Source of the DNA: Brevibacterium marinum
GTDB lineage: Bacteria; Actinomycetota; Actinomycetes; Actinomycetales; Brevibacteriaceae
Direction of reading: 5' to 3'
NCBI RefSeq assembly: GCF_011927955.1
Contig: NZ_JAATJN010000001.1
Coordinates: 992,001-1,056,000, forward strand
Length of the DNA: 64,000 nt
The notes beneath the pieces were generated by a model, which worked only from the letters and a program-made list of their open reading frames with translations, did not search any database and was not told the DNA's origin. This document shows, piece by piece, positions 3,323-42,784 of the stretch; the first letter of the stretch is position 1; the number at the start of each line of letters is the position of its first letter. Position numbers and translations under genes: made by a program.

Positions 3323-4365
3323 CCGGCGGCGACACGTCGCGCGTCGGTGCTGTCGTTGACACGGCGCGCGTCGACACCGTCCGCGACACGGCCGACGATC
3401 CGCATGAGCGGCCTGCACCCGACGTGATCACCGTGACGCTCAGCCCCGCCCGGGACATCACCATCTCCACGCAGCACCTGGACCCGGGCCGCTCGCACCG
3501 GATCGACCCCGCAGCGGGCAGGCTCGGGGGCAAGGGGATCAACGTGGCCAGGGTGCTCGCAAGCATCGGCACCGCCGCCTACGTACAGGGTCCCGTCTCC
3601 CGCGAACACTGGCCCGAATCCGACGGCAGACGGTGCGCGGACAGCTCGACCGACATCGAACCGGTGTGGGACCTGACCCCGAGCTCGACGCGACTGCGCT
3701 GCAGCTATGCCGTCGTCGAGGAATCGGGACGCGCCACCGTGCTCAACGAACGAGCCCCGGCACAGACGCCCACGGTCTGGACGGCACTGACCGAGACCAT
3801 CATGCGGCGCCTGCGCGAGACGTCTGTGTCCGTTCTCGTGATCTCGGGCTCCACCCCCGCAGACTGCCCGGACGACTTCCACGCGGGGCTCGTGGGGGCC
3901 GCACACGCGGCCGGAGTCAGCGTCATCGTCGACACCTCCGGCCCCGCACTGCTCACCGCCGCACGAGCGGGCGCCGACTGGGTCAAACCCAACGACGAGG
4001 AGCTGAAGGAGCTGTTCGCACACGAGGATGCGACCACCTCGGCGAGGGAACTCGTCGGACTGGGCGCCCACCGCGTCCTCGTCTCCCGCGGTGAGGCCGG
4101 CATGGTCCTCGTCGACGGGAACGGCACTCGATGGAGTGCGCGACTGCGGCGGGTCCTGCGGGGCAATCCCACCGGGGCGGGCGACGCAGCGGTGGCGGCC
4201 CTGGCTCATCACCTGGTCGAATCACCCGACTCGGGGTGGATGAGCGAGGGTTCCGTCCGCGACATGGTCGCGCTCTCGGCCTCCGCGGTCCTCATGCCCC
4301 AAGCCGGCCGGATCCACCCCGACTGGAAGAACCTGAGAACAGACGTCAGCTTGGAGCGAGCATGA
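3319..4365 (+). CDS. PfkB-family kinase, tagatose-6-phosphate or fructose-1-phosphate kinase type
   Basis: 348 aa. PfkB ribokinase-fold sugar kinase. Signature GGKGINVARVLA lies near residue 70, and the C-terminal NPTGAGDAAVAALA contains the GAGD anion hole with the catalytic Asp. The DWVKPNDEEL segment is typical of the LacC/FruK branch. The start was placed at ATG 3319, which overlaps the ROK stop by four bases; the open frame continues further upstream inside the ROK gene but that is antagonised by the coupling pattern. About 35 residues precede the usual beginning of the fold. In context it would phosphorylate tagatose-6-phosphate to the 1,6-bisphosphate. Confidence 0.85.
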   Translation: MTGGDTSRVGAVVDTARVDTVRDTADDPHERPAPDVITVTLSPARDITISTQHLDPGRSHRIDPAAGRLGGKGINVARVLASIGTAAYVQGPVSREHWPESDGRRCADSSTDIEPVWDLTPSSTRLRCSYAVVEESGRATVLNERAPAQTPTVWTALTETIMRRLRETSVSVLVISGSTPADCPDDFHAGLVGAAHAAGVSVIVDTSGPALLTAARAGADWVKPNDEELKELFAHEDATTSARELVGLGAHRVLVSRGEAGMVLVDGNGTRWSARLRRVLRGNPTGAGDAAVAALAHHLVESPDSGWMSEGSVRDMVALSASAVLMPQAGRIHPDWKNLRTDVSLERA

Positions 4366-5226: not shown

Positions 5227-6018
5227 ATGAGCACCCGTGAGGACCGTCTCGACTCGATCCTGTCGAAACTCGACCGGACGGGCACCGTCGGCGTCGAGGC
5301 GCTGAGCCAGGAGCTGGAGGTCTCCGTGGCCACGATCCGCCGCGACCTCGATCTGCTCGAGCGGCGACGCCTCGTCGAACGCACCCACGGCGGGGCCACA
5401 CGACGGGCCGTCGACTACGACCTGTCGCTGCGCTACAAGGAAGCGGCGGCGACCGAGGCGAAGGCGGCGATCGCCCGGGCGGCGGTCGACCGGATCATCC
5501 CCGGATCGGTCGTCGGGCTCTCCGGGGGAACGACCACCTTCATGGTCGCCGACGCACTGAGCCAACGAGACGACCTGCTCCACGACCTCACCGTCGTCAC
5601 CAACGCCGTCGACATCGCCAACAAGCTCGCCGTCCACCCCGACATCAAGGTGATCGTGTGCGGTGGCGTCATCAACACCTCGAGCTTCGAACTCGTCGGA
5701 ACCTTCGTCGATTCGGTGCTGCGCAGCATCTGGCTGGACCTGGCATTCGTCGGCGTCCACGCATTCACCGCTGCGAACGGGGGACTGACGGCCAATGAGG
5801 ACGAAGCCTACGTCAACCGCCTCATGGCCGAACGCGCCGAGCAGGCCGTCGTCGTCGCCGACTCCTCGAAGTACGGCAGACGCTCCTTCGCCGGCGTCGG
5901 CGGCACCGAGGTGTTCCAGGCGATCATCACCGACTCCCACCTCGGGTCGGACGCCCACGCCGAGCTGAGGCAGGCCGGCTACGACGTCGAACTGGCGCAG
6001 ATGCAGGAGAGGGTCTGA
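5227..6018 (+). CDS. DeoR-family transcriptional regulator
   Basis: 263 aa. N-terminal DeoR winged helix (about residues 5-58) with ATIRRDLDLLE as recognition helix and the family's THGGATRR hinge. The C-terminal effector domain has GLSGGTTTFMVADAL, the phosphosugar-binding region. ATG 5227 was preferred because GGTGAGGA lies upstream at 5205-5212; the GTG at 5206 lacks any ribosome-binding site. Family members such as AgaR and GlpR repress their own sugar operon and are released by a phosphosugar. It sits inside the operon it probably controls. Confidence 0.88.
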   Translation: MSTREDRLDSILSKLDRTGTVGVEALSQELEVSVATIRRDLDLLERRRLVERTHGGATRRAVDYDLSLRYKEAAATEAKAAIARAAVDRIIPGSVVGLSGGTTTFMVADALSQRDDLLHDLTVVTNAVDIANKLAVHPDIKVIVCGGVINTSSFELVGTFVDSVLRSIWLDLAFVGVHAFTAANGGLTANEDEAYVNRLMAERAEQAVVVADSSKYGRRSFAGVGGTEVFQAIITDSHLGSDAHAELRQAGYDVELAQMQERV

Positions 6019-38113: not shown

Positions 38114-38178
38114 CGGCCCCTCGGAGCGGAACGGCCCCTCGGAGCGGAACGGCCCCTCGGAGGGGAGCGGTCCCTCAG
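38114..38178. repeat. 18-base tandem repeat, 3.6 copies, containing a stop codon
   Basis: CGGCCCCTCGGAGCGGAA at 38114-38131 and 38132-38149, a variant at 38150-38167 and a partial unit at 38168-38178 that includes the stop (TCA 38175-38177) of the minus-strand MarR gene. Confidence 0.85.
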
Positions 38179-38870
38179 TGGGGCCAGGCGTCGGCCAGTC
38201 GTGAGAGCAGCTGCGCGAGAAGAGCACGTTCCTCATCGCTGAATCCGTCGAGGGCCTGATCGACGCTCTCCCGCTGAGCTCCTCGGAACCTGCTGGTGAT
38301 CGCACGGCCCTTGTCCGTGAGTGCGATGAGTGTGCGACGGGCGTCCTCGGGATCGACTTCGCGCTGCAGCAGCCCCAGCTCAACGCCCTGTGACACGAGG
38401 CGAGAGGCCCGAGGTTGGTCGACGCCGATCGCCTCACCGATCGCACTGACGCCCAGAGGCCTCCCGGCCTGAGCGAGGGCGATGAGCAGTCGCAGCTGCG
38501 CCCGTCCGCCGAGGTGACCGCCTCCGAAGTTGCCTCGCCAATCGTGTTCGTCGTCATGTCGACCACGATCGCTGTCATGACGGCGATCGCCGCGGGGTGC
38601 GTCCTCTCCGAGTGGACCGCGCGGGTCGTGAGAGGAACGTTCATCTTCGCTGCCGTGTCGGCGCCGACCGCGCCCGAACGGAAAATCTCCCCGTCCTGGA
38701 CCGCCGAATCCGGGACGGCCACCGAAACCAGGTGCGCCTGAAGGCGGCCCGAATCCGCGCGGGCCGCCACCGGGCCCGCGCCTCCACTGCAGGCGCGTCA
38801 GCGCCTCGGCGATCCTCTGGCTGGCATCGTCCGCGCCCATACCCTGATCGTTCTTCCCCTGGCTGCTCAT
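38175..38870 (-). CDS. MarR-family regulator with Gly/Arg/Phe-rich insert
   Basis: 231 aa. Helix 1 is near residues 14-30; residues 31-120 are low complexity, first Gly/Pro/Phe/Arg-rich (RGFG, PGFGGRPGFGG, FPFGRGRRR), then Asp/Arg/His-rich. The winged helix follows (about 125-190: LRLLIALAQAGRPLGVSAI, VDQPRASRLVSQ, DPEDARRTLIALT) and a C-terminal dimer helix (SDEERALLAQLLSRLADAW). Without the insert it would be a normal 140-aa MarR protein. Leaderless: TAAAAT, six bases, ATG 38870. Divergent from an Arg/Gly-rich protein gene with which it shares an operator-like region. Confidence 0.87.
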   Translation of the reverse strand: MSSQGKNDQGMGADDASQRIAEALTRLQWRRGPGGGPRGFGPPSGAPGFGGRPGFGGPGRGDFPFGRGRRRHGSEDERSSHDPRGPLGEDAPRGDRRHDSDRGRHDDEHDWRGNFGGGHLGGRAQLRLLIALAQAGRPLGVSAIGEAIGVDQPRASRLVSQGVELGLLQREVDPEDARRTLIALTDKGRAITSRFRGAQRESVDQALDGFSDEERALLAQLLSRLADAWPH

Positions 38871-38876
38871 ACTTCG

Positions 38877-38882
38877 ATTTTA
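38877..38882 (-). promoter_or_regulatory. -10 box of leaderless marR-type gene
   Basis: TAAAAT on the minus strand, six bases before ATG 38870; it abuts the palindrome starting at 38883. Confidence 0.6.
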
Positions 38883-38933
38883 CATGTCTATTGACATGCT
38901 TTGCGAGTGCATGTCATGCTACATATACATGTC
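38883..38933. promoter_or_regulatory. Cluster of CATGTC/GACATG operator half-sites
   Basis: CATGTC-TATT-GACATG (38883-38898) is a perfect 6-4-6 palindrome directly upstream of the MarR -10 box. Further half-sites are GCATG-T-CATGC (38909-38919) and CATGTC (38928-38933). They fill the gap between the divergent MarR and RG-rich protein genes, so the MarR protein probably represses both. Confidence 0.7.
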
Positions 38934-38956
38934 GAATAACAAGTAAAGGAGATGGC

Positions 38957-39784
38957 ATGAACTCGCATAACAGCGACAGAGAGAATGACAGCAGCTTCAG
39001 CGGCCAATCAGGTCGTGACGAACGTGCTGATGAACGCAGTGAGGATCTGAATGAGGAGAGTGCGAAGATGAACGACGAAAACGAATTCGACGGGGCAGGC
39101 TCTGTCGAAGCTGACCGTTCCGAGCTCCGCGACGAGGGCCCGGACCTGACGGACCTTCTCAAGCAGGCGAGCCGCCTGCTGCGCCGAAAACTCGCTGCCG
39201 CAGCTGCAGCCGGGGAGTTCGGAAACCGCGGCCGGGCGATCCGTGAAGAGGTCGATGCCGTGATCGACGAGGCGCTGTCGGACGAAGAACTCGAAACCCT
39301 GACAGACTCTCTGAGTAGAATCGTTGACACGCTCGGCAGGAACGCGGAAGGTGCCGACGATGAGTGCAATGACCGTCGAGAGTTCGCCGGCCGACGCGGC
39401 TACGCGGCTCGTCGCGAATTCGCGCGCCGCTTCGCTCGTGCTGGCGGGGCCGCCACATACCGAGAGTATGGTCTCGGACGTGGGTTCGGTCCCTCCGGCG
39501 ACCGGAAGCCGAGGCGGGAATGGAGCCCACGGCAGGACCGGAACCGACCTCACGGGTGGGGTCCGCGTGGTGGCTGGGGCTCACGCGAGGACTGGGGTGA
39601 AGGCCTCGCGGACGAAGGACGCTTCGACCACCGCCGCAGCCATGAAGCCTGGGGGCCGGAGGTCCACGGCGCCGACCATCGTGGTCATCGCCTCGGCAGT
39701 CGGCGTCGAGGCATGGGCAGGATGGCCGGCGCTGCGTTCGAACACGGATTCGCAGCGGGCTACGAACACGGCGCCCGGTCCTGA
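38957..39784 (+). CDS. Arg/Gly-rich disordered protein with MarR-like helix
   Basis: 275 aa, no recognised family. Residues 1-65 are acidic and disordered; 66-90 form an amphipathic Lys/Arg/Ala helix (LLKQASRLLRRKLAAAAAAG); 95-127 are helical, and SDEELETLTDSLSRIVDTL (108-126) aligns with SDEERALLAQLLSRLADAW, the dimer helix of the divergent MarR protein, with 9 of 19 identities. Residues 138-275 are rich in Arg, Gly, His, Trp and Tyr (RGGWGSREDWG, FDHRRSHEAWG). AAAGGAGATGG sets ATG 38957. Likely a target and perhaps partner of that regulator. Confidence 0.7.
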   Translation: MNSHNSDRENDSSFSGQSGRDERADERSEDLNEESAKMNDENEFDGAGSVEADRSELRDEGPDLTDLLKQASRLLRRKLAAAAAAGEFGNRGRAIREEVDAVIDEALSDEELETLTDSLSRIVDTLGRNAEGADDECNDRREFAGRRGYAARREFARRFARAGGAATYREYGLGRGFGPSGDRKPRREWSPRQDRNRPHGWGPRGGWGSREDWGEGLADEGRFDHRRSHEAWGPEVHGADHRGHRLGSRRRGMGRMAGAAFEHGFAAGYEHGARS

Positions 39785-41998: not shown

Positions 41999-42784
41999 AT
42001 GAGATACCTCGTCGCTCTGATCATCGGCATCGGCGCCCTGTTCTGCGTCAACGCCTTCGCCGACCTCTTCTCGATGCCGCGCCCGTGGAATTCGCTGCTG
42101 ATGGGTGCCACCGTCGGCATCACAATGGTCGTCGTCCTCCTCATCTGGGAAGTCGTCAAGCCCAGCAACAAGGACGCAGCACCGGCGAAGCCGGCGATGA
42201 GCGAGGAGGAGCGGGCGAACGCGCGCGCCGAGCGTCGTGCCCGATTGGCCGCCGAGGCGGGTGTGAGTCTCGATGACAGCGACCGATCCGAGCCGGACGC
42301 AGCCTCTCAGGAGTCCGATGAGTCCTCGATCGAGGCGGAACCGACCGAGGTCGAAAGCGGGCAGGACGAGCGAGACGAGGCCGAGACGGCACAGGACGAG
42401 CGACGTGTTGACGAGGCTGCACAGGACGAGGACGGGGACACCGGTGTCGGCGCCGGCCCGGGAGAGTCGGAGACATCGGCACCGGATGAGGTCGACGAAG
42501 AGGCGACGGGATCATCCCTGGAGAGCCCTCCGACAGGAGAGCCCGGAGCGTCCGTGGGCTCGACGGAAGACGCGCCGCCCGAGCCCGACCCTGACTTCGA
42601 GTCCGCCCCTGGCTTCGAGTCCGACGGGAAATCCGCCGATGGTGACGGGTCGAGGCACGACGGCGAATCCGCCGAAGCAGACAAGGCGAGGGACGACCGC
42701 GAATCGACAGATGTTGACGAGTCGTCGGATGGCGACGATTCCGGAGACGAAACCGTCCCCGGGGGACCGGCCCCCAAGAGCTGA
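41999..42784 (+). CDS. Two-helix membrane protein with long acidic tail
   Basis: 261 aa. Two N-terminal helices (YLVALIIGIGALFCVNAFAD and LLMGATVGITMVVVLLIWEV), a basic helical patch (ERANARAERRARLAAEAGV) and then about 170 disordered residues made almost entirely of Asp, Glu, Ser, Gly, Pro and Ala. The N-terminal part resembles short actinobacterial membrane proteins of unknown function. The tail looks expandable and is not conserved-looking. Confidence 0.65.
   Translation: MRYLVALIIGIGALFCVNAFADLFSMPRPWNSLLMGATVGITMVVVLLIWEVVKPSNKDAAPAKPAMSEEERANARAERRARLAAEAGVSLDDSDRSEPDAASQESDESSIEAEPTEVESGQDERDEAETAQDERRVDEAAQDEDGDTGVGAGPGESETSAPDEVDEEATGSSLESPPTGEPGASVGSTEDAPPEPDPDFESAPGFESDGKSADGDGSRHDGESAEADKARDDRESTDVDESSDGDDSGDETVPGGPAPKS

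Follow-up and report, generated by a model that had tools for sequence, protein, structure and literature searches.

A MarR-family regulator and its divergently encoded, MarR-derived partner in Brevibacterium and Microbacteriaceae

The gene pair and the region between its genes

The window analysed here is a 64,000-nucleotide stretch of the 4.22-Mb actinobacterial genome of Brevibacterium marinum. Within it, a gene for a MarR-family regulator and a gene for a protein that has no match in Pfam, hereafter the partner, face away from each other across a short region bearing candidate operator sites. The coordinates and strands given for both genes in the original prediction are correct. The features considered below are the following.

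38175..38870, minus strand: gene for the MarR-family, putative repressor (231 aa, no cysteine; PF12802, MarR_2)
38184..38519, minus strand: MarR winged helix and C-terminal dimer helices (dN/dS 0.066)
38520..38777, minus strand: low-complexity insert of the MarR protein, about 86 aa, G/R/F/P-rich and then D/R/H-rich (from sequence)
38871..38956, no strand: shared putative divergent operator/promoter region, 86 bp, with four ACATG-type half-sites
38882-38886, 38892-38898, 38910-38916 and 38927-38933: the ACATG-type half-sites
38957..39784, plus strand: gene for the partner, 275 aa, MarR-derived by profile comparison, without a winged helix
39143..39211, plus strand: partner helix 1, about residues 63-85 (AlphaFold helix 64-84; hhalign to helix 1 of the Microbacterium partner)
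39224..39340, plus strand: partner hairpin corresponding to MarR helices 5-6, about residues 90-128, including the SDEE segment (hhalign alignments and the AlphaFold model of the window partner)
39365..39367, plus strand: codon of Cys137, the only cysteine of the window partner (sequence; one-cysteine pattern)
39368..39712, plus strand: R/G/W/H-rich low-complexity tail, predicted to be disordered (pLDDT under 50 for most residues from 173 onwards)
39722..39778, plus strand: conserved C-terminal helix of the partner, AAFEHGFAAGYEHGARS (AlphaFold helix 256-274, low confidence)

The regulator has a MarR winged-helix domain, with PF12802 matching residues 123-179 (E 5.6e-10) at 39.7 bits against a cut-off of 27. 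The Gly/Arg/Phe-rich and then Asp/Arg/His-rich stretch noted in the original prediction separates helix 1 (IAEALTRLQW, residues 20-29) from the winged helix, which begins at about residue 118. MarR proteins from outgroup loci such as L269 lack this insert and pass from the helix-1 motif to the winged helix in about 20 aa. An 18-bp tandem repeat (CGGCCCCTCGGAGCGGAA; 3.5 copies, 93% match) occupies positions 38114-38176, in the interval between the stop codon of the neighbouring SRPBCC gene and the 3' end of the MarR gene.

The partner had been described as an unrecognised protein with a 138-residue tail, and its last ~138 residues are indeed rich in Arg, Gly, Trp and His. Its AlphaFold model, which is of low confidence, consists entirely of helices, with no strands and no wing, and a Foldseek search with this model returned no fold match, a result that is uninformative for a model of this quality. 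The C-terminal helix contains several invariant alignment columns (A260, G264-A266 and G268).

A shared palindromic region had also been predicted between the genes. The palindrome TGACATG-N11-CATGTCA, which did not occur once in 100 shuffles of the window, is located at 38892-38916, and its footprint is conserved across two families: a block of about 55 bp can be aligned between Brevibacterium and Microbacteriaceae (ATTTTACATGYnnCTTGACATGCn9TGCATGTCATnCTnCATATACATGTCA). These conserved half-sites, read from sequence alone, place a probable palindromic operator at the regulator's own promoter. In a genome search allowing two mismatches, the exact site ACATGYNNNTTGACATG was found only between the pair, as would be expected for autoregulation of a closed module. 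One-mismatch matches occur at L260, beside a different MarR gene, and at L261; at two mismatches there are 26 sites, several of them inside the pair's own region, versus 10 for the reversed pattern. We considered a wider regulon based on these one- and two-mismatch sites and rejected it, as they look like background. A scan for sigma-70 promoters and terminators found none.

Pairing, co-loss and selection across genomes

The partner evolves too fast to serve as a probe, and a search of contigs across genomes with the window partner as sole query found nothing; we therefore used the MarR protein and alignments as queries. MarR orthologues are present in 29 of 57 Brevibacterium genomes and also in Microbacteriaceae. 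The original prediction had staked itself in advance on the partner being conserved next to MarR homologues, and this was found at each scale: an intact divergent partner accompanies all 29 Brevibacterium orthologues, with the two starts 86-87 bp apart; it is present at 78 of 80 Brevibacterium and Microbacteriaceae loci, the remaining two being cut by contig ends; and across the class (394 genomes) it lies beside 20 of the 21 highest-ranking MarR matches (E <= 1e-25), the exception, in G186, being at a contig edge. The next-best MarR proteins beyond these 21 have no partner close by. Pairing is a trait of this MarR subfamily. Plasmid searches gave distant matches only, among them a Streptomyces plasmid that encodes a MarR protein on one strand and a partner-type protein on the other.

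The genes flanking the pair, encoding LssY_C, SRPBCC and acyl-CoA synthetase proteins, are common to 27 of 28 Brevibacterium loci and to none of the 84 loci in the Microbacteriaceae set. Beside the synthetase gene, an ORF at 42001-42784 of the window, conserved in 24 of the 28 Brevibacterium loci, encodes a protein with a hydrophobic N-terminal part, after which comes a long low-complexity tail rich in Asp, Glu and Ser. Nine Brevibacterium genomes carry the SRPBCC gene without the MarR gene. In seven of these the SRPBCC and acyl-CoA synthetase genes are only 37-143 bp apart, and both genes of the pair and all half-sites are gone; in another (L296) the interval is an unrelated 706-bp gap. The closed-up flanks indicate that both genes and the operator were gained or lost together and, with the pairing in 29/29 and 78/80 loci, that they constitute a single module. 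In the last of the nine genomes (L293, contig G036:C9, downstream of SRPBCC) the syntenic site has a LysR-type gene and a frameshifted remnant of MarR, and the partner is missing; this is the module caught in decay.

Both genes are under purifying selection, with dN/dS below 0.45 in all of their parts. The values are 0.05-0.07 for the MarR winged helix, 0.10 and 0.35 for the partner core in the linens clade and the window clade, and 0.17-0.28 for the tails, that of the window partner being 0.28.

Descent of the partner from a MarR-fold family

The likeness of the partner to MarR had been proposed from a short match to the regulator's dimer helix, SDEELETLTDSLSRIVDTL / SDEERALLAQLLSRLADAW, which is identical at 9 of 19 positions. 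A direct hhalign profile comparison of partner and MarR is weak and not significant alone (P = 0.014 over 22 columns), and the resemblance of the helix is secure only through related families. The Brevibacterium partners align with those of Microbacteriaceae at E 3.2e-18 over 127 columns, and at 2.6e-10 after removal of the low-complexity parts, versus 0.24 or worse for reversed and shuffled controls. The Microbacteriaceae partners in turn match a family of ~150-aa proteins found across the class (8.3e-31), which matches solved MarR structures (2.7e-12, with dozens more) as well as the module's own MarR protein (2.4e-8). The AlphaFold model of the Microbacterium partner has a core with pLDDT above 90; MarR-family structures make up nearly all of its top 50 Foldseek rows, and the top VIA-align rows among the matches listed are all MarR, with Z of about 10-11.

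By this chain of profiles, from Microbacteriaceae partners through the ~150-aa family to solved MarR structures, the window partner is a wing-less descendant of a MarR-fold family. There are no residues between its helix 1 and hairpin that could house a winged helix, making it a MarR-derived protein and not a DNA-binding MarR regulator. The original prediction of one MarR-like helix was therefore right about the helix and understated the extent of the relationship, as the protein belongs, without its wing, to an undescribed MarR-fold family. The best Pfam and NCBIfam matches of the Microbacterium partner, to the HTH_67 / SCO6745-type models (PF21863 and NF047719), are borderline (2.4e-6 and 9e-5); they align only in the region of the wing and C-terminal helix, and most members fall under the curated cut-offs. 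The class-wide ~150-aa family (L269-L288; RPIGYWLK...RRxWQVLN...) is not covered by a dedicated Pfam model and is often encoded away from MarR genes.

Arranged by lineage, the partners differ in how much of the DNA reader they retain. In those of outgroup loci L269, L271 and L280 the MarR-like core is complete and a low-complexity tail is absent. In Microbacteriaceae the wing is kept, the winged helix is shortened, the model does not form the first HTH helix, and a tail rich in His, Gly, Phe and Arg has been added. Most Brevibacterium partners have an RG-rich linker in place of the reader, and in the window clade helix 1 and the helix 5-6 hairpin are all that remains of the MarR core. At L145, from another Microbacteriaceae genus, the partner (~5273-5800) comprises a His-rich N-terminal part with one cysteine followed by the hairpin LAPEQLHRRIAATVSHADYMTTLRTLRRIGMEL, and the operator is conserved. 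The DNA reader has been lost separately in L145 and Brevibacterium, i.e. at least twice. Two variants of the partner may be recorded here. The outgroup partner ORF at L277 (~3500-4041) opens with a lipoprotein-like signal (MRYLLCALAVLTLTAC) before the MarR-like domain; either the start is misassigned or this may be a form anchored in the membrane. In one Microbacteriaceae clade (L140, L142 and L148) the tails end in alternating VHVHVHVH, and the AYERGFDAG C-terminal helix is missing.

A possible antirepressor and its alternatives

The distribution of cysteine in the two proteins bears on what the tail might do. Among 73 pairs, no MarR orthologue contains a cysteine; of the partner tails, 59 have exactly one, 7 have two and 7 have none. 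These tail counts are under-dispersed (variance/mean 0.17 and 0.19), below all twelve other residues examined. The sequence contexts of the cysteine are diverse, often with acidic residues before and His after (e.g. DEGCHGH, DDGCRGH), which suggests that a single cysteine is kept up despite turnover of the tail, in a pattern inflated by shared ancestry. His makes up 0.07-0.14 of the tail and is enriched near the cysteine (0.169 vs 0.112). The cysteine pattern suggests that the partner may receive a redox or metal signal. Given that the tail is rich in His and has one recurrent cysteine in addition to its RG/FG character, metal or redox sensing would be at least as likely as condensate formation. 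The low-complexity parts of the two proteins resemble each other, with GFPR contents of 55-56% in the tail and 57-69% in the MarR insert, and their lengths correlate (rho 0.76 and 0.38, uncorrected for phylogeny).

We suggest, at about even chances, that the pair is a self-contained autoregulated repressor with a DNA-binding-dead antirepressor or co-regulator. In this model, the MarR protein would bind the four intergenic half-sites and repress both genes. The partner, which has lost the winged helix but retains the elements used by MarR proteins for dimerisation (helix 1 and the hairpin of helices 5-6), would most likely pair with MarR through these elements and act as a dominant-negative antirepressor or co-regulator. 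The one-cysteine, His/Arg/Gly-rich tail and the matching MarR insert might provide signal input or mutual affinity. The partner helices might, however, form only homodimers, or the protein could work through its tail and not through the helices. A more tentative extension of the model is that sensing has moved off the repressor, such that a cysteine-free MarR would be controlled by a wing-less heterodimerising paralogue with a single-cysteine sensor tail, the matched low-complexity regions tuning their association.

Possible, although we consider it somewhat doubtful, is that the partner is itself the effector and MarR only its repressor, with no complex between the two. A partner homodimer would then bind a metal, an oxidant or nucleic acid through its tail, as a buffer or chaperone. 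With the only exact genome match of the operator at the pair, the partner is the sole evident output of the regulator, and the tail composition described above, both in His and in the recurrent cysteine, fits such a role. This explanation does not account for the descent of the partner from the fold of its own regulator, for the repeated loss of the DNA reader with retention of the dimer helices, or for the similar low-complexity regions in both proteins. It is unlikely that the partner is instead a co-repressor, with a MarR-partner assembly bridging the four half-sites for tighter or looped repression. Four conserved half-sites in ~55 bp do exceed the need of one MarR dimer, and the winged helix is retained in Microbacterium and outgroup partners, but the Brevibacterium and L145 partners have no DNA-binding head, which leaves the Arg-rich tail as the only source of additional contact.

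The matched G/F/P/R-rich regions, and the correlation between insert and tail lengths, are what would be expected if these parts drove co-condensation of both proteins with DNA or RNA, in line with the condensates suggested in the original prediction; because metal or redox chemistry explains the His and Cys content equally well, we regard this as rather improbable. The relaxed core of the partner in the window clade relative to the linens clade, together with loss of the winged helix, could be taken as signs of a decaying pseudogene or chance ORF. Such an origin is very improbable given the low dN/dS throughout, the intact gene and fixed spacing in every Brevibacterium genome with the MarR gene, and the conserved C-terminal helix.

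In the open-access literature we found no description of a MarR repressor accompanied by a MarR-derived partner without a wing. Autoregulated, divergent MarR-family repressors such as Corynebacterium glutamicum CrtR (PMC7432914) and MexR (PMC6018408) likewise have palindromic sites at their own divergent promoter regions, but there the divergent gene is a pump, enzyme or biosynthetic operon, whereas here it encodes a MarR-derived, DNA-binding-dead protein. Antagonism of a MarR repressor by a small protein, as proposed here for the partner, is known from the antirepressor pair MexR-ArmR (3ECH; PMC6018408, PMC10458429). There, NalC controls ArmR, a peptide of 53 aa that inserts into the cavity of the MarR protein; the partner, in contrast, is a divergently encoded, 275-aa MarR-fold descendant. 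The 1-Cys OhrR redox sensors share with the module a single conserved cysteine in each chain that may act as a redox switch. In OhrR, however, it lies in the DNA-binding MarR protein itself (PMC10458429), and here in the disordered tail of the partner.

With two genes, the module is small enough for rebuilding in vitro, and it would allow a clear test of the functional importance of low-complexity regions in bacterial regulators. The partner belongs to a family that lacks its own Pfam model and has relatives spread across actinomycetes. From an intact winged-helix paralogue, through a shortened reader, to no reader at all, these proteins form a natural series that illustrates how a duplicated transcription factor could turn into a DNA-binding-dead partner.
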